Shown: positions 3,349-34,463 of the stretch, one piece after another
Layout: each line of letters begins with the position of its first letter
Numbering within the stretch: the first letter of the stretch is position 1
NCBI GenBank assembly: GCA_025360125.1
Contig: JANYCU010000011.1
Location: 62,001 to 126,000, forward strand
Length of the DNA: 64,000 nucleotides
Origin: Armatimonadota bacterium
GTDB lineage: Bacteria; Armatimonadota; Fimbriimonadia; Fimbriimonadales; Fimbriimonadaceae
Direction of reading: 5' to 3'
The notes under the pieces: model-generated
The model's input: only the letters and a program-made list of their open reading frames with translations
Told to the model about the DNA's origin: nothing
Databases searched by the model: none
Made by a program: the position numbers and the translations under genes

Positions 3349-4230
3349 TTAGGGCATCATTCGCCAAGATCGCTCGGACATCTGTTTTGAATCGAGTGGT
3401 CTGGCCGCGCCACCGAGGAAGAGGACGATGTCTTTGCTTCCGCCGTTGGTCAATTGATTAGCATTGTTGTAGTCTCGGTAATAAGTACTCCACGTGATAA
3501 CGGTCGTATCTGGTGGGTCTGAGTATCCGAGCTGCCGCGGATCGTCGAGGGCAGATCCGGCAGTGACGCCGAAGCCCGTCCAGAACAGCGTGTAGTGCAA
3601 TTCGTTATAAAAGGTTCCGTTGAGGAATTTCGCTGGTCCAACATCGTAGCCGCTGATGGCATAGAATCGACCGACGACGGTATCCGTCGTCGAAGTGGAT
3701 TGGTTGATGTTAGGGGTAGCGGCGGGATCGTTAAGGAAGTATTGGGCGGTACTGGCGTAGTTGGAGCCATAAGCTTGTCGTGCGAGGGCCACGTCGTCAA
3801 GCGGTGACAAAATGCCATCGGCGTTCAAGTCAAGAATTGGCGCGGAACCAATAGGTCGGGCATCAACTTGAGGCCAGATTGCGGGCACCATTAAATTTTC
3901 TTTGGCTTTATTGATACCGCCTTTAAAGGTATCAAGGGACTCCACTCGCTTGGGGTACAACGCGCCATGAACCTGACCTGCAGGCACAACGGTGACGCCG
4001 TTTTGATACTGATACGGTGTGATGTAGCCAAGCAACGCAGGTGGATATCCTCCTTGGTCATCTCGGTAAAGCTGAAGTGCTGACCGAATTGAGTTCATTG
4101 CTGACATATCGCCACTTTTGAAAGCATTTAATTTGACCCGTCCAAAGACTGGAAAAATAATTGCTGAAAGCAAAGCGATGATCGCCATCACCGTTAAAAG
4201 CTCGATGAGTGTAAATGCGCGTTTTTTCAT
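3349..4230 (-). CDS. prepilin-type protein (PulG/GspG-like N-terminus)
   Basis: I place the start at the ATG at 4230, giving [20 protein letters not shown], a standard prepilin leader. The open frame extends 37 codons further upstream, but that part has no leader-like sequence. The protein is 293 residues. After the hydrophobic helix it continues SAMNSIRSALQLYRDDQGGYPPAL, resembling the GspG/pilin pattern in which an early helix is followed by an YxxDxGxYP-type segment. A dockerin-like stretch, DLNADGILSPLDDV (about residue 138), could bind calcium; that is inference. It is the first of three consecutive prepilins downstream of the pilD homolog. Confidence 0.85.
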   Translation of the reverse strand: MKKRAFTLIELLTVMAIIALLSAIIFPVFGRVKLNAFKSGDMSAMNSIRSALQLYRDDQGGYPPALLGYITPYQYQNGVTVVPAGQVHGALYPKRVESLDTFKGGINKAKENLMVPAIWPQVDARPIGSAPILDLNADGILSPLDDVALARQAYGSNYASTAQYFLNDPAATPNINQSTSTTDTVVGRFYAISGYDVGPAKFLNGTFYNELHYTLFWTGFGVTAGSALDDPRQLGYSDPPDTTVITWSTYYRDYNNANQLTNGGSKDIVLFLGGAARPLDSKQMSERSWRMMP

Positions 4231-4381
4231 TTCTACCGTTCCCGTACCCTCTTCCCTAACAGAGTTCGACCTTAGCGAACCCCATACTGTTCCTTCGTTT
4301 CGCTTTTGTTTTGCGAATAGGTCGGAAGTCCTACTATCCAAACCTCGATTATGACGCGAAAAGCCCGTCTAAATCGCGGGT

Positions 4382-5413
4382 TTACGAGCCGTTTAGAGCC
4401 TTCAAAACATTCGTGGCGTAATTCAAAAGTTCAGTTCTCATAAGCATACAGACTATTGCGCCAATTGCCAAGTAAGGTCCGAAAGGAATTGTTGTCAGAC
4501 TTGGCTCCCATTCGTCGTCTTCGACGCTGACATCTTCAACCGGATAGCCCATTCGGCTGTATAGTTTGGGGAACCATATTGCCGCGATATCGAGGCATAC
4601 AAGGTAGGTCAATCCCAAAATCAAAAGATCTTTGATTGGCTCCGGTTCGTATTCGTCTTCCGATTCCGTTTCTGGTTTCGTTAAATCCTCGCCCAAGGCG
4701 ACCTTGGCCGCGGCGGCTTTCGAGTCTTTGACAGATTGAATGGCGATAAAGAGGAGTCCAAAAACGAGCCCGGTCACAACCGCGATACCGACATCAATGA
4801 CGGTCATTATGGGGCCCAATAAGGCACCTACTCCTCGCATCATTTTTATGTCGCCATGTCCCATGGCGTCCTTACCGAAGGCAATTCGGCCAAAGAAGGC
4901 GATGCCGAAGATGACTCCCCACCCCATGAGATAGCCAGTAAGGCAATGGTTCCAATTGTGGCTGTATATCGCAAGTCCGATGCCGAGAAACAAAAGAAAG
5001 GCGTTGATTTCGTCGGGAATGATGAAATGCTCGCCGTCGATAAAGATGATGGCGACGAGGGCCGCGGTGGCGAGCAGGTAGAAAATTGCCAAAACCCATT
5101 CGCTTCCGGTTGGATCGGCACAGAAGTAGCGATACCAAATGGCCGCCCATAGCGAGCCATTGACAAGTTCGACCCAAAAGTAGCGTGAAGGAACTTTTAG
5201 CCCGCAATGCTGACAGCGGCCCTTTGAAAATAGCCAGCTAAAGAGGGGCACCAGGTCTGCCAATCCGAGTTGATGCTTGCAAGACGGGCAGAAACTATGC
5301 TTGGGGCTTCCCAGCGATAGTAGCCGTGGCATTCGGTATATAACGACATTGAGGAAGCTGCCAATGGCGGCTCCAATCATCAGTCCAACTATCCAAGTCC
5401 ATTCTGGAAACAT
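4382..5413 (-). CDS. pilD: type IV prepilin peptidase / N-methyltransferase (PilD/GspO)
   Basis: PilD is an inner-membrane aspartic protease of family A24 that cuts prepilin leaders and methylates the new N-terminus. Near the N-terminus are the GSFLNVVIYRMP motif and two zinc-binding pairs, CPSC and CQHC, typical of the bifunctional enzymes. The two catalytic aspartates are expected in FIDGEHFIIPDEI and in GHGDIKMM; both motifs are present. Several membrane segments follow. At 343 residues it is longer than most because of an acidic insert (ETESEDEYEPEP, about residue 245) in a cytoplasmic loop before the last helices. It sits between pilC and the prepilin genes that supply its substrates. 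Confidence 0.95.
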   Translation of the reverse strand: MFPEWTWIVGLMIGAAIGSFLNVVIYRMPRLLSLGSPKHSFCPSCKHQLGLADLVPLFSWLFSKGRCQHCGLKVPSRYFWVELVNGSLWAAIWYRYFCADPTGSEWVLAIFYLLATAALVAIIFIDGEHFIIPDEINAFLLFLGIGLAIYSHNWNHCLTGYLMGWGVIFGIAFFGRIAFGKDAMGHGDIKMMRGVGALLGPIMTVIDVGIAVVTGLVFGLLFIAIQSVKDSKAAAAKVALGEDLTKPETESEDEYEPEPIKDLLILGLTYLVCLDIAAIWFPKLYSRMGYPVEDVSVEDDEWEPSLTTIPFGPYLAIGAIVCMLMRTELLNYATNVLKALNGS

Positions 5414-5431
5414 AGGTCTTCCTTAACAACA

Positions 5432-5458
5432 ATGCCCGTTGCGGCTTGCAACGGGCAT
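5432..5458. terminator. perfect 11-bp hairpin between pilC and pilD
   Basis: The arms ATGCCCGTTGC (5432-5442) and GCAACGGGCAT (5448-5458) are perfectly complementary around a five-base loop. The hairpin lies in the 67-base gap between pilC and pilD on the minus strand, followed only by ATTGTTGTT and not a clean T run. It may be a leaky terminator or an RNA-processing/stability element that sets pilD and prepilin levels below the motor genes. Confidence 0.55.
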
Positions 5459-5480
5459 CGTACCTTTTTGAAAGGCTTCT

Positions 5481-6713
5481 TTACTTGTCGTCTGCGGCAC
5501 CCGACGAGAGTGACGAGATAACCTTGACGAGCGGGAGAAACATCGAGATAACGATGAATCCAACGATAAATCCTAGTCCGACGATCATGATTGGCTCAAG
5601 GGCAGCCGTGAGAGCAGCGAGAGCAGCCTCAACTTCATTTTCGTAGAAGTCTGCGATCTTTTGAAGCATAAAGTCCAAAGACCCCGATTCTTCACCAACA
5701 CCGATCATATGAACGACCATTGGAGGGAACAATTTTGATTCTTCGAGAGGGTCACCAATTCGGTCTCCTTCACGGATTCGCGCTCGAGCTTCGAGGATCG
5801 CGTCGGACATGATCGTGTTTCCGACTGTGCCTGCAACGGTTTCCATTGCCTGCAAGATTGGAACACCCGAAGTCAACAAGGTACCCATGGTTCGGCTAAA
5901 TCGAGCCATTGCGATCTTATGGTGAAGTTTCCCGAATACTGGAACCTTCAATTTCACACGATCCATAACTCGTCGTCCAAAACGTGTGGATACGAAGAGC
6001 TTGTGGGCGACGATCAAGATGATGATCGAAACCGCAACAATCCAACCTTTATAGACCAAGATGTTTGACAAATCGATCAAGAACTTGGTTGGTGCTGGAA
6101 GATCTTCTGCCTTCAACCCGAGATCGGTAAGGATGGCGGCCCACTGAGGAATAAACCAGTAAACCAAGAAGAGGGTAATACCACCTGCCATGACACTAAC
6201 CAGGACTGGGTAGGTCAAAGCTGACTTGACTTTTCTTCGCAGTTCAACGTCTTTTTCAAGGAAGTGGCTGAGCCGTTGGAGAGACTCTTCAAGGACACCA
6301 CCAACTTCACCAGCTTTGATCAAACCGATAAAGAGTGAGCTAAATGCCTTAGGGTGTCGTTGCATGGCTCGACTTAACGATTCACCAGCTTCAACACGGC
6401 CACCCAAGTCGGCGATAATCTTTTTGAGTCGCTTGTTTTGAGTTTGGTTTCCAAGAACGTCTAGACAACGAACCAATGAAACACCAGCATCGACCATGGT
6501 TGAGAACTGACGACACCATACCGACAAGTCGGCAAGTCTGACTTTTCCCGGGCTCCGAACCTTGGGGCTTCGGGCTTTGATCATCGTTAGTTCGGTGATC
6601 GTAAAGCCTTGCTCCTCAAAGCGTTTCCTTAAAAGCTCTTCGCTTTCTGCGTCGGCAGTACCCTTTTGGATCGAACCTACGGCGTCTTTGAATGTGTAGC
6701 TGAAGATAGGCAT
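5481..6713 (-). CDS. pilC: pilus assembly inner-membrane platform protein PilC (GspF family)
   Basis: This 410-residue protein has the length and duplicated layout of the PilC/GspF family: a cytoplasmic N-terminus, two T2SSF repeats (about residues 65-190 and 270-390) and three membrane segments. Family-typical pieces are visible, including FSTMVDAGVSLVRCLDVL in the first repeat, TMGTLLTSGVPILQAMETVAGTVGN in the second, and LEPIMIVGLGFIVGFIV near the end. PilC forms the platform that couples the ATPases to the growing fibre. GGAGAAAAG upstream supports the ATG at 6713. It follows pilT after 12 bases in the same operon. Confidence 0.95.
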   Translation of the reverse strand: MPIFSYTFKDAVGSIQKGTADAESEELLRKRFEEQGFTITELTMIKARSPKVRSPGKVRLADLSVWCRQFSTMVDAGVSLVRCLDVLGNQTQNKRLKKIIADLGGRVEAGESLSRAMQRHPKAFSSLFIGLIKAGEVGGVLEESLQRLSHFLEKDVELRRKVKSALTYPVLVSVMAGGITLFLVYWFIPQWAAILTDLGLKAEDLPAPTKFLIDLSNILVYKGWIVAVSIIILIVAHKLFVSTRFGRRVMDRVKLKVPVFGKLHHKIAMARFSRTMGTLLTSGVPILQAMETVAGTVGNTIMSDAILEARARIREGDRIGDPLEESKLFPPMVVHMIGVGEESGSLDFMLQKIADFYENEVEAALAALTAALEPIMIVGLGFIVGFIVISMFLPLVKVISSLSSGAADDK

Positions 6714-6725
6714 TCTTTTCTCCTG

Positions 6726-8069
6726 TTATCGTTTAATTTGACCAGTTCCTGTACTAACTTGCATGCCACCAGTGGTGGCCAACATCTTCTTAAGTTCTTC
6801 GACGTTGGTACATCGTGACATGATGTCTTCGAGGCTCACCCACCCTTTCAGGTAGAGGTCACGGAGACATTGATCCATCGTGAACATTCCCATATTGGCG
6901 GAAGTTTGGATCATTGACGTAATTTGGTGAGTCTTTGCTTCGCGAATGAGGTTTCTGATTGCAGGTGATGCGACCATGATTTCATTTGCGGGGACTCGAC
7001 CCTTGCCACTTGAGTGAGCCAACAACTGTTGCGAAATGATCGCGACGAGGTTGTTGGAAAGCTGAACACGGATTTGCTCTTGCTGTCCGGGAGGGAAAAC
7101 GTCAATCATACGGTCAACGCTTTCTGCGGCGTTGTTCGTGTGGAGCGTTGCAAAAACAAGGTGACCAGTTTCAGCAGCGGTGATCGCCAACTGAATCGTT
7201 TCAACGTCTCGCATTTCACCAACGAGGAGGATATCTGGATCTTCTCGAAGGCTAGCGCGGAGTGCGTTTCCGAAGCTCTTTGTATCCATTCCAAGTTCGC
7301 GCTGGTTGATGACGCTTAGCTTGTGTTCGTGGAGGTACTCGATCGGGTCTTCGATCGTAATAATGTGGTGAGCATAATTCAGATTAATGTGGTGAATCAT
7401 TGCCGCAAGCGACGTTGACTTTCCGGAACCAGTTGGCCCCGTAACCAGAATCAATCCTCTTGGCTTTTCGGTCAAGCTCTTGAGAACCAGCGGAAGTTTG
7501 AGTTCTTCAACTGTAGGAATTTTGGAAGAGATTAATCGGAAAGCGGCCGCGCACGAGCCTTTATCTCGATAAAGGTTTACACGGAATCGAGCCCGAGCAA
7601 CGGGTCCACCTGGGACTCGGAGATGGAAAGGAATCGGAAGCGAGTATGAAAAGTCCAATTCGTTGGATGTTTCAAACCGTTGAATTTGGTCATCGGTAAT
7701 GATTTCGTACATGATTCGCTGAATGTTTTCAGGAATGAACTGATCATAGTTGAGTCGCTTGATTTTGCCATCGTGCCGAACGACCGGAGGCGATGCTTGA
7801 CAGATGTGAAGATCCGAACAATTCATATCAACGATGATTCCGAGGAGTTCATCGATGTGAAGATCATCAACCGTAGACTTTGGCCCCAGTGGCTTTTCGT
7901 CGTTGGGAATACCGCTAATGACTTCGACCCGTGATTTCCAATCATCCGGGTCGCGATTGTTGGTGTTGTTCTGCATTGGCGGTCGGCCAGGTGCGCCACC
8001 CATCGGTGCGCCACCTTGAGGTGGAGCAGGAGGTGCGCCGGTGTTTTGTCTTGTCGGATCGTTTTGCAT
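6726..8069 (-). CDS. pilT: twitching motility / pilus retraction ATPase PilT
   Basis: A hexameric ATPase expected to drive pilus retraction. It has Walker A GPTGSGKST (about residue 212), an Asp box (TIEDPIEYLH), a Walker B-like segment (LREDPDILLVGEMRD) and a His box (TGHLVFATLHTN). The motif AIRNLIREAKTHQ near the C-terminus is diagnostic of PilT rather than PilB. The N-terminus carries an unusual extension of about 55 residues rich in Pro, Gly and Asn before the conserved domain begins near DDLHIDELLGIIV; it is probably disordered. The gene lies between pilB and pilC with short spacers, and GAAGAG precedes the ATG. Confidence 0.95.
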   Translation of the reverse strand: MQNDPTRQNTGAPPAPPQGGAPMGGAPGRPPMQNNTNNRDPDDWKSRVEVISGIPNDEKPLGPKSTVDDLHIDELLGIIVDMNCSDLHICQASPPVVRHDGKIKRLNYDQFIPENIQRIMYEIITDDQIQRFETSNELDFSYSLPIPFHLRVPGGPVARARFRVNLYRDKGSCAAAFRLISSKIPTVEELKLPLVLKSLTEKPRGLILVTGPTGSGKSTSLAAMIHHINLNYAHHIITIEDPIEYLHEHKLSVINQRELGMDTKSFGNALRASLREDPDILLVGEMRDVETIQLAITAAETGHLVFATLHTNNAAESVDRMIDVFPPGQQEQIRVQLSNNLVAIISQQLLAHSSGKGRVPANEIMVASPAIRNLIREAKTHQITSMIQTSANMGMFTMDQCLRDLYLKGWVSLEDIMSRCTNVEELKKMLATTGGMQVSTGTGQIKR

Positions 8070-8089
8070 ATTTCTCTTCAGTCAATAAA

Positions 8090-9847
8090 TTAGAAGCCTG
8101 CCGTAAATACGACACGCATTACTTCTTCAGGAGTCGTGACTCCCTGAAGAACCTTGTGAAGTCCATCTTCACGCAGTTCTCTCATTCCACCTGCCTTTGC
8201 TGCCTCCTTAACATCATTTAGAGGGGCACGTCGAACAACAAGTTCCGCGATTTCCGCATTCATGACCATTAATTCATGGAATCCGGTTCGTCCACGGTAG
8301 CCCGTCATACGGTTGTATTCTGCGGGTATTCCTCGGTAAAGGGTAACTAGCTCATCAGGATTGGTCACGTTGAATCCGAACCGTCGAAGGTCCATTTGGG
8401 TTACTTCGTAAGTTTCTTTGTTCTCAACGTCGATTCGCCTACCAAGCCGTTGGGCAAGGACACCGATAACCGTCGCAGCGATCAAGTAGGGCTCAACACC
8501 CATATCGATCATACGGAGAGTAGCGGATGGCGCATCGTTTGTGTGGAGGGTCGAGAGTACCAAGTGACCCGTGAGCGATGCTTCGATCGCAATTTCTGCG
8601 GTTTCAAGGTCTCGCATTTCACCAACCATGATGATATCGGGATCTTGCCGTAGATAAGCACGAAGTGCGGTTGCAAATGTAAGGCCAGCTTTTCGGTTCA
8701 TCTGAACCTGAGCAATTCCATTGAGCTGATACTCAATCGGATCTTCAGCTGTGATGATGTTGACGCCGACAGTATTGAGTTTGTTAAGAACCGAGTACTG
8801 AGTCGTCGTCTTTCCAGATCCCGTAGGTCCGGTACAGAGGAACATTCCGTTTGGCTGACTGACCAGCTCTTCAATTCGAAGCTGATTTTCTTCGGTAAAG
8901 CCAATTTTTTCAAGACCAATCATAACCGTGGTCTTGTCAAGAATTCGCATAACAATCTTCTCGCCAAACGGGGTTGGAATTGAGCTAACACGAAGGTCAA
9001 TTTCTTTACCATTCGACTTAACTTCAATACGACCGTCTTGCGGGATTCTTCGCTCGGCGATGTTCATGTCTGCCATGATCTTATAGCGGCTTATGAGTGG
9101 AGCCATGAGGTTCCGAGGAACAGTCATTGCTTCCATAAGCACACCGTCAATTCGATAACGGACTCGGATGGACCTTACGCCTGGTTCAATATGAACGTCC
9201 GACGCTCGATCTGAAATCGCTTGCTGGATGATCGCACTGGCGAGTTTGATGATTGGGGCAGCATCGGCACCAGCTGCGTCATCTTCTCGGCCTTCATCGA
9301 GAGCGGCATCGGCATCTCGCCCTTGCTTGACGCCTGCTTCGGCCATGAATCGGGCAAAGTCAGGATTGACGACATTTTTCGATCCACTTTCGGCCACGGC
9401 CTGAACGACGGTACCGCCTCCATAATTCTTACGAATTGCATCTTCGATTGCGCCTTGAACCGCTAAAACGGGCACAACTCGGCAACCAGAAGCGACCCGA
9501 AAATCGTCAATTGCGGAAACATTGTTTGGGTTAGACATGGCAACCCAAATGGTTGTCCCATCTTTCCGAACAGGTATGGCACTATGGTTTTTGACGATTC
9601 GTTCGGGCACGACATTGAGTGCGCTCGAATCTATCGTCATGCGATCAAGGTCGGCAAATCCAAGGCCGGACTCTTGAGCTTTGGCTTGGAGAACTTCCCT
9701 TTCTCCGCAGAATCCCAACTGGACAATCGCCTTTTCAAGGGACGAATTAGTCTGTTGCGAAACCTTAGTTGCCTCATCGGCTTGATCCTTCGTCAGAAAA
9801 TTCTTCTGAATTAGGAACTCTATCATTGAAACACGTGGCATTGCCAT
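8090..9847 (-). CDS. pilB: pilus extension / secretion ATPase (PilB/GspE), lacking the zinc tetracysteine
   Basis: This is the assembly ATPase of the operon, 585 residues. The N-terminal 150 residues match the MshEN/T2SSE_N domain that often binds cyclic di-GMP. The ATPase core has GPTGSGKTT, ITAEDPIEYQ, RQDPDIIMVGEMRD and LSTLHTNDAP. The usual C-terminal zinc subdomain, LCxxC then GCxxCxxTGYxGR, is altered: the chain reads QRLGRRIDVENKETY and later GIPAEYNRMTGYRGRTG. No cysteine occurs after the Walker A region. TGYRGRTGFHEL is kept, so the fold is probably intact. It is the first gene of the operon, so a promoter is expected upstream of 9847. Confidence 0.93.
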   Translation of the reverse strand: MAMPRVSMIEFLIQKNFLTKDQADEATKVSQQTNSSLEKAIVQLGFCGEREVLQAKAQESGLGFADLDRMTIDSSALNVVPERIVKNHSAIPVRKDGTTIWVAMSNPNNVSAIDDFRVASGCRVVPVLAVQGAIEDAIRKNYGGGTVVQAVAESGSKNVVNPDFARFMAEAGVKQGRDADAALDEGREDDAAGADAAPIIKLASAIIQQAISDRASDVHIEPGVRSIRVRYRIDGVLMEAMTVPRNLMAPLISRYKIMADMNIAERRIPQDGRIEVKSNGKEIDLRVSSIPTPFGEKIVMRILDKTTVMIGLEKIGFTEENQLRIEELVSQPNGMFLCTGPTGSGKTTTQYSVLNKLNTVGVNIITAEDPIEYQLNGIAQVQMNRKAGLTFATALRAYLRQDPDIIMVGEMRDLETAEIAIEASLTGHLVLSTLHTNDAPSATLRMIDMGVEPYLIAATVIGVLAQRLGRRIDVENKETYEVTQMDLRRFGFNVTNPDELVTLYRGIPAEYNRMTGYRGRTGFHELMVMNAEIAELVVRRAPLNDVKEAAKAGGMRELREDGLHKVLQGVTTPEEVMRVVFTAGF

Positions 9848-29399: not shown

Positions 29400-31385
29400 A
29401 TGAAATTTATCTCATCAGTCGCAGTCGTCGGGTTCGGAATTCTTGTTGCAACATCTGCTCTGGCTAGCCCAGTACCAACCCTTCGCGCCATGAGACTAGA
29501 GAAAGCACCGACGATTGACGGCAGACTCGACCTTACGGAGTGGGCTGGAGCAGCGAAGACTTCGGCATTCTTGGATCGATCGACGGCAGGTGATCCAAAT
29601 CAGAAAACTGAAGCATGGATCGGATATACCAAAAAATCCATCTTTGTTGCCTTCTATTGCCATGATTCGGAACCGGATAAGATTATCGCGAGAGAGATTA
29701 TTCCCAACGCTGTTTTCAAAGGTGAAGATGTCGTTGAGTTCGACATTAATGCTTACGGGAATCGAACTTTTAACCAGCTCAGCGAATTTCGCGTCAATGC
29801 AATCGGGACCAAATCAGAGAAAATCGCTGGCGGTCGAACCGATAAGCGAGAGTGGCGGGGTGAATGGAATGCGGCAACCGCACGGGTTGCTGATGGCTGG
29901 GTGTGCGAGATAGAAATCCCGTGGACTAACCTCAACTTTCCCGGAAAGCCAAAATTCAACATGGACATCAATTTGATTCGGATCCATGGCCGAACTCAAT
30001 ATCAGCACAGTTGGGCCAATGCGCGAACGAATCCGCTGCCAGAGCTTCAAGGCATGTGGGAAGATGTTGAGCCGCCCGCTCCGCCAAAACAGAAGCTTCA
30101 ATTGCTTGGATACATGGCGCCGGAGCTCAACCATGGAATTTTGCAGAATCGGATGGGATTGGACGCTCGCTACGCATTTACTCCAGCCGTGACGGGAGTC
30201 ATGAGCTACGCCCCTGACTTTAAGAATATTCAGGACGTCGTTCCCGGAATCGACTTCGTCCATACCGAGCGATTCTTGAGCGAATCTCGACCGTTCTTCT
30301 CCGAGGGCTCTGGCTTCTTTCGGTTGACTGATTCGATGTTAGTCTATGGCTCCATGTTTTACAGCCGGCGCGTAGCCGACTTCGACATGGGCACGAAAGT
30401 TTATGGGCAAGCGACCCCATCACTAGCGTTTGGTGCCCTCTACACCAATAAGTGGGACGGCGACAAGGCCGCGGTTTTCAACGTGAATAAGACCCTTTCC
30501 CCGACTTCGAATGTCAGCTTCTTTGGCACCGCAAGTGCCACTGGGACCGGAACTGTTGGAAGCGCAGAAAATACGTCGATGGGCGTGAACTACTACCGTC
30601 GAAGCGGTCCAATTGGCATCAACTTCACGACTTCGATGGAGAAGGATAAAGGGACGAAGACGGATACCGCAGGTGCATTTGGCGTTTCTTATGAGGGCAA
30701 CGGCGACCAATTCTATTCGGAATATATGTGGGTCACGCCAGACTTTAACCCGGCCCTCGGCTACATTCCTTGGACGGATCGCCGCGGAGGATACTTGTAT
30801 TACGAACGAGATCGAACGATCAAGGAGGGTCCGATTCGAGATACTCGATTTAACATCAGCCGCTCGATGTACAAAACCTACGGAGGTGTACTCCAAGAGG
30901 ACGGCTTTGATTCTTCCATGAACGTGAGCCTCAAGAACGACATCGCGTTTGGCGCAGCCAAGGTGCGTTACACCTATAGCGGAGTTTTGGACGATTACAA
31001 CGTGGTAGGACTTGGACTTAATGTCAGCAATCGCCAAAAACAGTTTGCGATGAACTACAAGTGGGGCACCCAGAACGGAATGCCGAGCACATACTACATC
31101 ATGAAATTTGGCTATCGATTGGTCAAAAATCTCGACTTCACGCTTAACAAATCGTTGCAGGAGTTAGGGGGCTCAGCGCGGCAAACAATTGGGACGTTGG
31201 CATACCAAATATCGCCTCAAGACCTCATTTCGAGCCGCTATGTCATGAATGGAAACAAGAGCAATTTGTTCTTCAGCTACCGCCATGCTGGGTTTAAGGG
31301 TGCCGAATACTATCTGATTTATGGCGACCCGAATGCTCAAAAAACATCAAACCGCATCAGTATTAAGGCAGTTTGGGCGTTTTAG
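29400..31385 (+). CDS. CBM9-like / DUF5916 outer-membrane protein
   Basis: A 661-residue exported protein with a signal peptide (ISSVAVVGFGILVATSALAS). Residues about 30-210 resemble the CBM9-like sugar-binding fold (APTIDGRLDLTEWAGA, AWIGYTKKSIFVAFYCHD, WVCEIEIPWTNL). The rest matches the DUF5916 region: PFFSEGSGFFRLTDSMLVYGSMFYSRR followed by many alternating hydrophobic strands ending in ISIKAVWAF, with a terminal Phe, as expected for an outer-membrane beta-barrel. This supports a diderm envelope. Function is unknown; carbohydrate binding or uptake is plausible. Confidence 0.82.
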   Translation: MKFISSVAVVGFGILVATSALASPVPTLRAMRLEKAPTIDGRLDLTEWAGAAKTSAFLDRSTAGDPNQKTEAWIGYTKKSIFVAFYCHDSEPDKIIAREIIPNAVFKGEDVVEFDINAYGNRTFNQLSEFRVNAIGTKSEKIAGGRTDKREWRGEWNAATARVADGWVCEIEIPWTNLNFPGKPKFNMDINLIRIHGRTQYQHSWANARTNPLPELQGMWEDVEPPAPPKQKLQLLGYMAPELNHGILQNRMGLDARYAFTPAVTGVMSYAPDFKNIQDVVPGIDFVHTERFLSESRPFFSEGSGFFRLTDSMLVYGSMFYSRRVADFDMGTKVYGQATPSLAFGALYTNKWDGDKAAVFNVNKTLSPTSNVSFFGTASATGTGTVGSAENTSMGVNYYRRSGPIGINFTTSMEKDKGTKTDTAGAFGVSYEGNGDQFYSEYMWVTPDFNPALGYIPWTDRRGGYLYYERDRTIKEGPIRDTRFNISRSMYKTYGGVLQEDGFDSSMNVSLKNDIAFGAAKVRYTYSGVLDDYNVVGLGLNVSNRQKQFAMNYKWGTQNGMPSTYYIMKFGYRLVKNLDFTLNKSLQELGGSARQTIGTLAYQISPQDLISSRYVMNGNKSNLFFSYRHAGFKGAEYYLIYGDPNAQKTSNRISIKAVWAF

Positions 31386-31412: not shown

Positions 31413-31452
31413 AAAACTGTTATCCCAGTAAAATCACTGGGTAGCAGTTTTT
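31413..31452 (+). terminator. terminator-like hairpin ending one base before the ubiA start
   Basis: Outer arms AAAACTG (31413-31419) and CAGTTTT (31445-31451) enclose inner arms CCCAGT (31424-31429) and ACTGGG (31436-31441), with an A tract on the 5' side and TTTTT at the end. It looks like a rho-independent terminator for the DUF5916 gene, yet the ubiA ATG is at 31454. TAAAAT at 31429-31434, across the inner loop, could be the -10 box of a new promoter. Confidence 0.6.
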
Positions 31453-31453
31453 A

Positions 31454-32341
31454 ATGTCATTCGCCGATTTGGTAAGAGTAGTTCGAGTTAAGCAGTGGAC
31501 AAAGAATGTCTTCGTCTTCGCCGCATTCATTTTTGTCAAAGGTTGGGCCACTCCTGGCTATCCCAAATCCGTCATCTTTGCCTTTCTTGCCATGTGCCTG
31601 GCCTCTTCGGCGACATACCTGGTCAACGATATTTACGATATCGAGAAGGACCGGGCTCACCCGGTCAAAAAGAACCGACCGATCGCCTCCGGTCGAGTTC
31701 CAGTATATTTCGCCCTCGCCCTCGCCCTCGCCCTTCTCGTTGGTTCCTTCGTACTTGGTTATCTAAGCAACGTTAATGTTCTCTATGGGCTCCTCACTTA
31801 CTTGGGGATCCAAGTCGTTTATAACCTTTCGTGGCGTAACAAATCTGTCGCCGATGTGGCTTGCATCGCATTGGGATTTGTCATCCGAGTCATTCTTGGT
31901 GCCCTCGCGATCACTGAACCTGTCTCAGGTTGGATACTACTCTGCACGGCTACTCTCGCCCTTATGTTAGGTTTTGGCAAGCGACGGCACGAGTTCATTC
32001 TGATGGGCTCCCAATCGTCCTCTCGCAAAAGCCTGGCCGAGTATTCCCTGCAGTCCCTCGACATGCTCGTCGTTTTCTCGGCAACCTGTGCGGCCCTAAC
32101 TTATAGCGTTTACTCCATCGAAAGCATGACGGCTCGGCTGCATCCCGGACTCCTAGTCACGACTCCGTTCGTCATCTACGGCATCGCCCGCTACATCGTC
32201 ATCGTGTTTGGGTCCGGCGAAAGTGGCGAACCCGAATCAATGGTTCTGAAAGATCGCCAACTCATCATCACCTTTATCGGATATGCCGCCGCCGCGTATT
32301 TCGCCTTCAAAGACTTCCCTCTCCCATTCTTGTACCGATGA
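31454..32341 (+). CDS. UbiA-family decaprenyl-phosphate phosphoribosyltransferase
   Basis: A 295-residue UbiA prenyltransferase with about nine membrane helices. The signature NDIYDIEKDRAHPVKKNRP and the second Asp-rich loop region (LGFGKRRHEF) match the Rv3806c-type enzymes. These join phosphoribosyl pyrophosphate to polyprenyl phosphate, the first membrane step of decaprenylphosphoryl-arabinose (DPA) synthesis. The start RVVRVKQWTKNVFVFAA is the family opening. The next two genes, DprE2-like and DprE1-like, follow with ATGA overlaps, so the pathway assignment rests on both sequence and context. A GCCCTC hexamer repeated four times near 31711-31735 encodes Ala-Leu dipeptides in a helix. Confidence 0.88.
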   Translation: MSFADLVRVVRVKQWTKNVFVFAAFIFVKGWATPGYPKSVIFAFLAMCLASSATYLVNDIYDIEKDRAHPVKKNRPIASGRVPVYFALALALALLVGSFVLGYLSNVNVLYGLLTYLGIQVVYNLSWRNKSVADVACIALGFVIRVILGALAITEPVSGWILLCTATLALMLGFGKRRHEFILMGSQSSSRKSLAEYSLQSLDMLVVFSATCAALTYSVYSIESMTARLHPGLLVTTPFVIYGIARYIVIVFGSGESGEPESMVLKDRQLIITFIGYAAAAYFAFKDFPLPFLYR

Positions 32342-33060
32342 AACATAAAACCGCCATCATCATAGGAGCTTCCTCCGGCATCGGTCGAGAGATCGTTCGA
32401 ATCCTTGCTTCGCAGGGGACAATCGTGGCCGCTGTCGCGCGTCGAAAGCCCATGCTCGACGAACTCGTGGCCGAATTTCCTGGCAAGGTTCTCGCGTTCG
32501 AACACGACGTACTCAACACCGACGAGGTGCCGGAATTATTTTTAGAAATCACCAAGCAACTCGGTGGGCTCGACCTCTTTGTTTACAACAGCGGCGTGAT
32601 GCCGGAAGTCGAGTCGAGTGAGTTCGACTTTCAGAAGGACATGGACATGGTGAACGTAAATATGGTTGGCGCAATTGCCTGGTGCAACCAAGCCGCCAAC
32701 CGATTTCAGCACACCAAGCACGGCTGTCTTGTCGGAATCGGCAGTGTGGCGGGCGACCGTGGTCGCCAGTTGCAGCCCGTTTACAATGCATCCAAGGCAT
32801 TTCTGCACTCATACATGGAATCCATGCGGAACCGTCTCTGTCGGTACGGTGTTATCGTCAGTACGATTAAGCCAGGTCCGGTTGATACTGACCTCGCAAA
32901 GCACATGAAAATGAAGAAAATGTCGGCGCGACAAGCGGCCGAAATCTGCGTCACGAAGTTCCATAAGAACGGCGAGCACTACCTTGCGTTCTTCCACCGC
33001 TTTGCGTTTTACATCATCAAGCGAATTCCGAGCCCCATCTTCCGCAAGCTCAAACTATGA
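32338..33060 (+). CDS. DprE2-like short-chain dehydrogenase
   Basis: A 240-residue classical SDR with the NAD site IIIGASSGIGREIVR, the NSG(V) segment VYNSGVMPE, the catalytic Ser in GIGSVAGDRG and the YxxxK pair in YNASKAFLHSY. TIKPGPVDTDLAK is the family PG motif. Sandwiched between UbiA and DprE1 homologs with four-base overlaps on both sides, it most likely reduces the 2-keto intermediate to decaprenylphosphoryl-D-arabinose, the DprE2 step. The C-terminus is basic and hydrophobic (FAFYIIKRIPSPIFRKLKL), suggesting membrane association near its lipid-linked substrate. Confidence 0.82.
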   Translation: MKHKTAIIIGASSGIGREIVRILASQGTIVAAVARRKPMLDELVAEFPGKVLAFEHDVLNTDEVPELFLEITKQLGGLDLFVYNSGVMPEVESSEFDFQKDMDMVNVNMVGAIAWCNQAANRFQHTKHGCLVGIGSVAGDRGRQLQPVYNASKAFLHSYMESMRNRLCRYGVIVSTIKPGPVDTDLAKHMKMKKMSARQAAEICVTKFHKNGEHYLAFFHRFAFYIIKRIPSPIFRKLKL

Positions 33061-34463
33061 GTTCCGTTGACCTATCCGTAGACCGACTTGACCGAATCAG
33101 CGGATTCGGACAGGCCGAATACGCCGATGCCTTTGTGTATCGTCCCACGACGGTTGAAGAAATTCATGCGGTATTTGAGACGGCCCGAAAGTCTGGCCGA
33201 AAAGTAACCTTGCGCGGTGCAGGTCGCAGCTATGGCGACGCAAACACTGGCGCGGAGAACTTAGTCCTCGATATCACCCGAATGAACCGAATTCTTTCTT
33301 GGGATGCTGCGACTGGCATCGTGGATTGCGAAGCCGGGGTCACGATTGAAAACCTTTGGCGACACTGTCTCGAGGATGGATGGTGGCCGCCCGTGGTTAC
33401 CGGAACTATGTATCCAACGCTCGGCGGGTTGCTGGCGATGAATGTTCACGGCAAAAACAATTACTGCCAGGGCACGTTTGGCGAGCATATTCTCGACATT
33501 GATGTTGCCTATTCGGACGGTAAGTTTGAGACTTTGAAAGCATCGGACTCGCGCTTTTTTGAAGTTATTTCGTCGGCAGGTTTGCTTGGAGTCATCACTC
33601 GAGCCAAATTGCAAATGCACCACGTAGCGAGCGGAAACTTAAAAGTACTGGCCGAGGCCGCACACAACTGGGACGAAGAGTTCGCCTTGTTTGAGCATTA
33701 CGAAAATGACGCCGACTACATGGTTTCGTGGGTGGAGTGTTTTGGTCGCGGGGCGAAGGCGGGGCGGGGGCAATTTCATGCCGCCTGGTATCCCGATCGC
33801 GTTGATCTTCAGAGCCGAAAACCCGAATCCCAAGACTTACCGCCTCTGCTGATGGGATTCTTTCCCAAGTCGATGATGTGGAAGGTTCTCAAGTGGTTTT
33901 GCAACCGCCCAGGAATGAGGTTTGTTAATTGGGCGAAGTGGATGGCAAGCAGCACGATTGGCAATCATAAGATTCACGAGCAGCCATTGGTGGCCTTTTC
34001 CTTTTTGTTGGATTACGTCCCCGATTGGCGACGGGCTTATGAGCCAGGTGGGTTCATCCAGTATCAATCGTTTGTTCCGAAAGAACACGCTAAGCGAGTG
34101 TTTGCCGAGCAGGTCCGTTTGCAGCAAGAGTATCGCCTGGAATCTTATTTGGGAGTACTAAAAAGGCACCGCCGCGACAAGTTCTTGCTGACTCACGCGG
34201 TCGATGGTTACTCACTTGCCCTGGATTTCAAGGTAACCAAACGCAATCGCGCACGGTTGTGGGAGCTGGCTCACAAAATTAACGACCTCGTTCTCAAAGC
34301 AGGCGGAAGGTTTTACTTTGCCAAGGACTCAACGTTACGACCAGAAGACGCGGCGACTTATCTCGGCGAGGCGCTAACACAGTTTAAAGAAGTTAAGAGG
34401 CAGGTTGATCCCGAAGGGCTACTCACCAGCGACTTGGCTGAGCGTATCGAAATTGTCGATTAG
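33057..34463 (+). CDS. DprE1-like FAD-dependent oxidoreductase
   Basis: A 468-residue FAD-linked oxidase of the VAO/ALO type. The FAD-binding core has LRGAGRSYGDAN, VVTGTMYPTLGGLLAMNVHGKNN and HILDIDVAYSDG. The C-terminal substrate domain retains YLGVLK and AKDS, with Lys at about residue 423 matching the active-site Lys of mycobacterial DprE1. At the position of the benzothiazinone-reactive Cys387 this protein has Ala (GYSLALDF, residue 388), while the following Asp is kept. It should oxidise decaprenylphosphoryl-ribose at C2. It is the last gene of the three-gene operon; the Rv3807c-like phosphatase is not present in the window. Confidence 0.86.
   Translation: MSSVDLSVDRLDRISGFGQAEYADAFVYRPTTVEEIHAVFETARKSGRKVTLRGAGRSYGDANTGAENLVLDITRMNRILSWDAATGIVDCEAGVTIENLWRHCLEDGWWPPVVTGTMYPTLGGLLAMNVHGKNNYCQGTFGEHILDIDVAYSDGKFETLKASDSRFFEVISSAGLLGVITRAKLQMHHVASGNLKVLAEAAHNWDEEFALFEHYENDADYMVSWVECFGRGAKAGRGQFHAAWYPDRVDLQSRKPESQDLPPLLMGFFPKSMMWKVLKWFCNRPGMRFVNWAKWMASSTIGNHKIHEQPLVAFSFLLDYVPDWRRAYEPGGFIQYQSFVPKEHAKRVFAEQVRLQQEYRLESYLGVLKRHRRDKFLLTHAVDGYSLALDFKVTKRNRARLWELAHKINDLVLKAGGRFYFAKDSTLRPEDAATYLGEALTQFKEVKRQVDPEGLLTSDLAERIEIVD

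Follow-up and report, generated by a model that had tools for sequence, protein, structure and literature searches.

A UbiA, short-chain dehydrogenase and DprE1-like operon in Fimbriimonadaceae with the predicted capacity to make a polyprenyl-phosphate-linked D-arabinofuranose donor

Results

We describe an operon of three genes in a 64,000-nucleotide stretch of the genome of an Armatimonadota bacterium of the family Fimbriimonadaceae (GCA_025360125.1, contig JANYCU010000011.1, positions 62,001 to 126,000; hereafter the window). The operon encodes a UbiA-superfamily protein, a short-chain dehydrogenase/reductase (SDR) and an oxidase resembling DprE1. From sequence comparison we consider it likely that it makes a polyprenyl-phosphate-linked D-arabinofuranose donor from phosphoribosyl pyrophosphate (PRPP), with further steps carried out by a HAD::GtrA fusion protein encoded elsewhere and with an exopolysaccharide as acceptor. 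Sequence, fold and phylogeny establish the enzyme families and their catalytic residues, and show that the SDR and the oxidase (the epimerase pair) have co-evolved. The genes of the operon are as follows.

31454..32341, plus strand: predicted UbiA-superfamily polyprenyl-phosphate 5-phosphoribosyltransferase (PPPRS/DPPR-synthase type, Rv3806c homologue), 295 aa; from the open reading frame (ORF), phmmer, NF008977 and residues
32338..33060, plus strand: DprE2-like SDR, 240 aa, with motifs GASSGIG and YNASK; from the ORF, the match to 21gq_C, synteny and trees
33057..34463, plus strand: DprE1-like FAD-dependent polyprenylphosphoryl-ribose 2'-oxidase (predicted), 468 aa; from the phmmer match to 4aut, a structural model and residues

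The three ORFs are joined by two ATGA overlaps, at 32338-32341 (UbiA/SDR) and 33057-33060 (SDR/DprE1-like), exactly where an earlier reading made from the sequence alone had placed them. The source genome is 4.13 Mb in size and 98.6% complete, with the window on contig C39, and its closest named sequences are from Fimbriimonas and from metagenome-assembled Fimbriimonadaceae genomes; here and below, statements on whole genomes rest on targeted searches.

The first protein, which carries the UbiA signature NDIYDIEKDRAHPVKKNRP, is a predicted polyprenyl-phosphate phosphoribosyltransferase. Its best solved relatives in a phmmer search are structures of Rv3806c only (8j8j, E 3.1e-38). It scores 225.1 bits against NF008977 (cut-off 234) and 205.5 against NF008978 (cut-off 207), and the ordinary UbiA families all score below 60 bits. 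In PRPP-bound Rv3806c the ligands are R22, K28, Y70, N73, D77, K87, R90, Q135, Y138, K143 and Y157, and the phosphoribose-binding sites are not common to ordinary UbiA prenyltransferases (PMC10994848). The window protein is identical to Rv3806c at R22, K28, Y70, N73, D77, K87, R90, Q135, Y138, R192 and E195, and so has every one of the PRPP- and Mg-binding residues that we take to mark an enzyme of this type (R22, K28, Y70, N73, D77, K87, R90 and Y138); K143 is replaced by R and Y157 by F. Apart from one truncated row, R22, K28, Y70, N73, D77, K87, R90, Y138, R192 and E195 are invariant in 54 aligned homologues, and the genome's two ordinary UbiA proteins are without R22, K28, Y70, K87, R192 and E195. 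The assignment to the Rv3806c type, which the sequence-only reading had made from the signature, is thus borne out by phosphoribosyltransferase residues that ordinary UbiA proteins lack.

The oxidase matches DprE1 structures first in a phmmer search (4aut, E 2.7e-53), the next family following at E 7.8e-11. An AlphaFold model built from 30 natural sequences (pLDDT 88.3, pTM 0.88) aligns to DprE1 of Mycobacterium smegmatis (4aut) with Z 46.2 and a root-mean-square deviation of 1.8 over 405 residues; the next-best fold family, galactonolactone dehydrogenase, gives Z 36.6. The invariant active-site residues are H131, K133, Q335, Q337, K369 and K423, which we take to be the equivalents of H132, K134, Q334, Q336, K367 and K418 of M. 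tuberculosis DprE1. The oxidase therefore has both the fold and the active-site residues of DprE1. The position of the cysteine targeted by benzothiazinones is occupied by Ala388, and by Ala throughout the aligned homologues. In the oxidase tree, from which we ignored an outgroup row (OUT_L204) misplaced by a very long branch, a long branch parts the group of the window protein and DprE1 from other FAD oxidases. Phylogeny, which the sequence-only reading had proposed as a check, thus agrees with phmmer and fold in grouping the oxidase with DprE1, far from other sugar oxidases, contrary to the placement that the same reading had named as a refutation.

The SDR aligns over its full length to M. 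tuberculosis DprE2 (21gq_C, E 1.6e-17), but by sequence alone it would be called a generic SDR, since it scores higher (151.3 bits) on the generic SDR model. The stronger argument for its identity as DprE2 is context, that is synteny and a congruent tree, rather than sequence match. The SDR adjoins DprE1 in most of 80 loci, drawn from Armatimonadota, Chloroflexota, Myxococcota, Acidobacteriota, Planctomycetota and others; 28 of 37 genomes from the same family have UbiA and DprE1 on the same strand, separated by one gene, and because of these two observations we regard the grouping as beyond chance. The SDR tree has the same major split as the DprE1 tree and mirrors it, and pairwise SDR and DprE1 distances are correlated (r = 0.87 over 55 pairs, with 0 of 2000 permutations as high). 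Adjacency, congruent trees and this correlation show that the SDR pairs and co-evolves with an oxidase of the DprE1 type.

UbiA is present in 267 of 291 Armatimonadota genomes and DprE1 in 136 of the 291, including 81 of the 85 Fimbriimonadaceae genomes; one family (f2) has UbiA and no DprE1. UbiA is therefore older and more widespread, and the epimerase pair is variable. The window DprE1-like protein belongs to a clade of 15 Fimbriimonadaceae rows (SH-aLRT 99), set apart from a group that contains actinobacterial, rhizobial and cyanobacterial sequences. We reject horizontal transfer from Actinobacteria, as the window proteins group with Fimbriimonadaceae at a distance from both the actinobacterial and the rhizobial sequences, and also a phage or mobile origin: there was no match in phage records, and the rhizobial matches, plasmid-borne as they are, are only ~33% identical. 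As judged by these comparisons, the predicted pathway is an old, family-wide trait and not a recent import. We note that several Fimbriimonadaceae (loci L068-L072) have a DprE1-SDR pair that belongs to the clade with the rhizobial and cyanobacterial sequences, away from UbiA and in some cases beside serS, which suggests replacement, and that a GtrA-DprE1-DprE2-AftA set lies at the end of a linear plasmid of Rhodococcus ruber (pmega_4, locus L200).

Published systems of this kind depend on three further parts, namely a 5'-phosphatase, a flippase and a GT-C transferase (PMC11127046), and the window operon has no gene for a phosphatase, a flippase or an arabinosyltransferase. To call the operon complete-looking, as had been done, was therefore too strong, although the first two functions have a fused candidate elsewhere in the genome.

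C36:37137-38225 (= locus L187:7138-8226), own genome (G000), between MltG and AroE: HAD(YqeG)::GtrA fusion, 363 aa; from TIGR01668 and GtrA

The N-terminal half of this protein is a YqeG-type HAD (TIGR01668, 113.9 bits, cut-off 89.1) with all HAD motifs present, and the C-terminal half is a GtrA domain (61.2 bits), the sole one in the window genome. There is one GtrA domain per family genome, and in sister families GtrA adjoins UbiA. By manual count, HAD::GtrA stands in a single frame in 73 of the 85 family genomes; seven of the others have the halves in pieces or frames, two have the HAD only and three gave no match. The fusion lies in the order IMPase-RuvX-MltG-[HAD::GtrA]-AroE-Sua5, and in the same surroundings the sister family f5 has HAD, UbiA and GtrA as separate consecutive genes, which makes the fusion the best candidate for the phosphatase and flippase steps. 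The most parsimonious account is that UbiA moved away from here to join DprE2-DprE1 and that the flanking HAD and GtrA became fused. Two reduced 1.5 Mb family genomes that are 97% complete (G152 and G153; loci L206 and L207) have lost UbiA, DprE1 and the GtrA half together and have kept the HAD. The joint loss supports GtrA as part of the pathway; retention of the HAD means that it has another role as well, perhaps as a phosphatidylglycerophosphate phosphatase, and makes the phosphatase assignment weaker than the flippase assignment. HAD::GtrA is the probable source of both steps. The six PAP2 proteins of the genome (the Rv3807c type), none of them linked to the operon, were uninformative as to the phosphatase.

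A search for GT-C arabinosyltransferases, which had been proposed as a further check and which we ran through PMT_2, found four proteins in the window genome, none of them near the operon. Since every relative has several such proteins, no single candidate emerged. One weak candidate (C55:99895-101271) has a conserved counterpart in 57 of 61 relatives; this homologue is found three genes away from SDR-UbiA in G004 and in the vicinity of UbiA in G038, a thin link seen in these two genomes only. GT-C candidates from rhizobia had no Pfam match and so could not be used as probes.

Genes for surface polysaccharides lie near the pathway genes in several families. In f2, UbiA and GtrA are ~2 kb or less from an exosortase in 7 of 7 genomes tested, in the order Wza-Wzc-phosphoglycosyltransferase-epimerase-UbiA-GtrA-exosortase-DUF3485 (EpsI-like), and among 20 genomes of the window's own family, 7 have UbiA and the exosortase no more than 30 kb apart; our chance estimate for this proximity is a simple binomial that ignores the relatedness of the genomes and is indicative only. 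Some relatives have galE and rmlD-like genes ahead of UbiA, and in Myxococcota the SDR-DprE1 pair precedes GT4, phosphoglycosyltransferase, Wzx and Wzy-like genes. We note that the f2 loci (L157-L161 and L182-L186) hold UbiA-GtrA within an exosortase polysaccharide locus that has no DprE1, which predicts ribofuranose there in place of arabinofuranose. Pilus-machinery homologues were found in none of 39 relatives' loci around the operon or DprE1. With polysaccharide and exosortase neighbours in relatives and no pilus machinery in these loci, exopolysaccharide is favoured over the pilus, and an exosortase-linked exopolysaccharide is the likelier acceptor. The suggestion that the operon might decorate the pilus thus finds no positional support. 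The window does contain a pilus/type II secretion cluster (3349-9847), at least 21 kb upstream of the operon; this cluster also includes a pilin-like protein.

4382-5413: prepilin peptidase
5481-6713: PilC-like protein
6726-8069: second T2SSE ATPase
8090-9847: PilB-like ATPase

One further element lies between UbiA and the gene upstream of it.

31413..31451, plus strand: terminator-like hairpin with U-run; from fold energy against shuffles

The hairpin (-19.9 kcal/mol, z -6.33, with 0 of 200 shuffles equally stable) separates UbiA from a DUF5916-like gene, and so the operon is probably its own transcription unit. The annotated UbiA ATG stands directly behind the U-run, which makes the exact start codon uncertain; no clear ribosome-binding site precedes this ATG, and the start may differ or be regulated. 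The relatives checked showed no similar hairpin ahead of UbiA. The upstream gene (29400-31385) encodes a secreted 661-aa protein with weak similarity to DUF5916; a homologue stands ahead of UbiA in G018 and in G015, though not in G002.

Discussion

We infer the reactions of the pathway, the roles of HAD and GtrA, the direction of the flippase, the acceptor and the sugar itself. UbiA would move 5-phosphoribose from PRPP onto polyprenyl phosphate (probably undecaprenyl phosphate), and a phosphatase, for which the HAD half of HAD::GtrA (C36:37137-38225) is the best candidate, would strip the 5'-phosphate. The DprE1-like flavoenzyme would then oxidise C2 and the SDR would reduce it with inverted stereochemistry, giving polyprenyl-phosphate-arabinofuranose. 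The GtrA half of the fusion may help this donor across the inner membrane, where a GT-C arabinosyltransferase (C55:99895-101271 being a weak candidate) could pass arabinofuranose to a surface glycan, most likely the exosortase-linked exopolysaccharide.

Several findings weigh against this proposal. The oxidase scores 289.3 bits against the NCBIfam DprE1 equivalog NF053785, the cut-off of which is 500, and for this reason we name it DprE1-like and not DprE1 sensu stricto; the SDR scores 99.1 bits against the DprE2 equivalog NF053786, with a cut-off of 250, and UbiA falls narrowly short of NF008977. Thus the claim that the set equals Rv3806c, DprE2 and DprE1 holds by homology but goes beyond what the DprE1 and DprE2 family models allow. 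The PMT_2 search of the genome and its relatives picked out no arabinosyltransferase, and in the window genome the operon and the exosortase are on different contigs. The HAD/YqeG protein is found throughout the phylum (265 of 291 genomes) and is retained in reduced genomes that have no UbiA, so that a part for the HAD phosphatase in the pathway may be coincidental, and the fusion could be a mere remnant of the departure of UbiA from between HAD and GtrA.

It is in our view improbable that a TfpW-like GT-C uses the arabinose donor to modify type IV pilins, as in Pseudomonas paraeruginosa, and that the link to polysaccharide is incidental. The window holds pilus/type II secretion genes and pilin-like proteins, and Fimbriimonas ginsengisoli, which forms fimbriae, has genes for 79 pseudopilins (PMC4072686); against this, the window's pilus genes are more than 21 kb from the operon, the 39 loci of relatives hold no homologue of the machinery, and UbiA co-localizes with polysaccharide genes in sister families. 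We give about the same low weight to the idea that polyprenyl-phosphate-ribose is the relevant donor, and that the oxidase and SDR use another substrate or epimerize elsewhere (for example at C3), so that the product is not arabinose. The absence of DprE1 from f2, the far greater frequency of UbiA than of DprE1 in the phylum, the occurrence of SDR-DprE1 without an adjacent UbiA in other phyla and the unmet DprE1 and DprE2 cut-offs would all suit such a scheme. It is harder to reconcile with the single operon of UbiA, SDR and DprE1 in 28 of 37 family genomes, with the invariance of all DprE1 active-site positions checked (the drug-binding cysteine excepted), and with the pairing of UbiA with DprE1/DprE2 homologues in known arabinofuranose systems (PMC11127046).

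Less probable still is a structural use of the donor, in an arabinan or an arabinogalactan-like polymer of the wall as in mycobacteria, and not in side chains of an exopolysaccharide. Near-universal UbiA in the phylum would suit a structural role better than a variable antigenic one. Yet the genes nearby are those for exopolysaccharide and exosortase, and no Emb/Aft set came up, although no search was aimed at those families. We continue to favour an arabinofuranose donor destined for exopolysaccharide.

The mycobacterial decaprenylphosphoryl-arabinose pathway (Rv3806c, Rv3807c, DprE1 and DprE2) employs the same three enzyme families, and shares with the window proteins the PRPP-binding residues of UbiA and the fold and active-site residues of DprE1. 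The window proteins are nevertheless only ~30% identical to it and form a separate clade that does not reflect recent transfer, the oxidase has Ala for the benzothiazinone cysteine, and no Rv3807c-type phosphatase lies beside the operon, the candidate being instead a HAD fused to GtrA. The three-component pentofuranose systems of Kelly et al. (2024; GT136; PMC11127046) likewise combine a PPPRS with an epimerase module and are expected to include a HAD-type phosphatase and a flippase; in the window genome, however, the parts are dispersed, the HAD is fused to a GtrA-family protein and not to UbiA, and the candidate flippase is GtrA and not MATE. Pilin arabinosylation in P. paraeruginosa (PSPA7_6245-6251, TfpW) also draws on a UbiA-based D-arabinofuranose donor pathway in a Gram-negative bacterium (PMC12369383), but there it is a genomic-island trait that serves pilin, whereas here it is lineage-wide and, in relatives, near polysaccharide genes.

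That homologous genes exist outside Actinobacteria in rhizobia and Pseudomonas, as the sequence-only reading stated, is on record: the pathway has been described in rhizobia as noeC, N, H, O and P (PMC5080398), in P. paraeruginosa (PMC12369383) and in a range of bacteria (PMC11127046). A literature search, whose journal coverage was incomplete, found no paper on the pathway in Armatimonadota, and we believe three features to be new: its scale across the phylum, the HAD::GtrA fusion and the association with exosortase. Tentatively, and with somewhat less than even confidence, we suggest that a polyprenyl-phospho-pentofuranose made from PRPP belongs to the core building blocks of the envelope throughout the Armatimonadota; that DprE1/DprE2 is an added ribose-to-arabinose switch, gained or replaced several times; and that HAD::GtrA of the Fimbriimonadaceae joins phosphatase and flippase in a fusion not described before, linking the lipid donor's maturation with its export for exosortase-linked polysaccharide. 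If PPPRS is core to a phylum, then D-pentofuranose glycans reach far beyond the mycobacterial wall. DprE1-like enzymes that naturally have Ala in place of the benzothiazinone cysteine would also be useful comparators for work on this drug target.

The flippase and the phosphatase are among the least certain steps of arabinose-donor synthesis, even in mycobacteria (PMC11127046), and a natural phosphatase-GtrA fusion, at a site where a sister family has UbiA between the two, makes both assignments directly testable. In the rhizobial loci for arabinosylation of Nod factors (noeC(N)HOP), where UbiA, DprE1 and DprE2 homologues occur together outside Actinobacteria (PMC5080398), the order is UbiA-GtrA-DprE1-SDR-GT, with GtrA and a probable GT-C adjoining, whereas the window has UbiA-SDR-DprE1 only. 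We note that in Sinorhizobium alkalisoli a GtrA gene lies between UbiA and DprE1, beside nodABC (L154:7579-8001). It occupies the noeN position and is annotated as GtrA, whereas noeN has been proposed to encode a phosphatase (PMC5080398).

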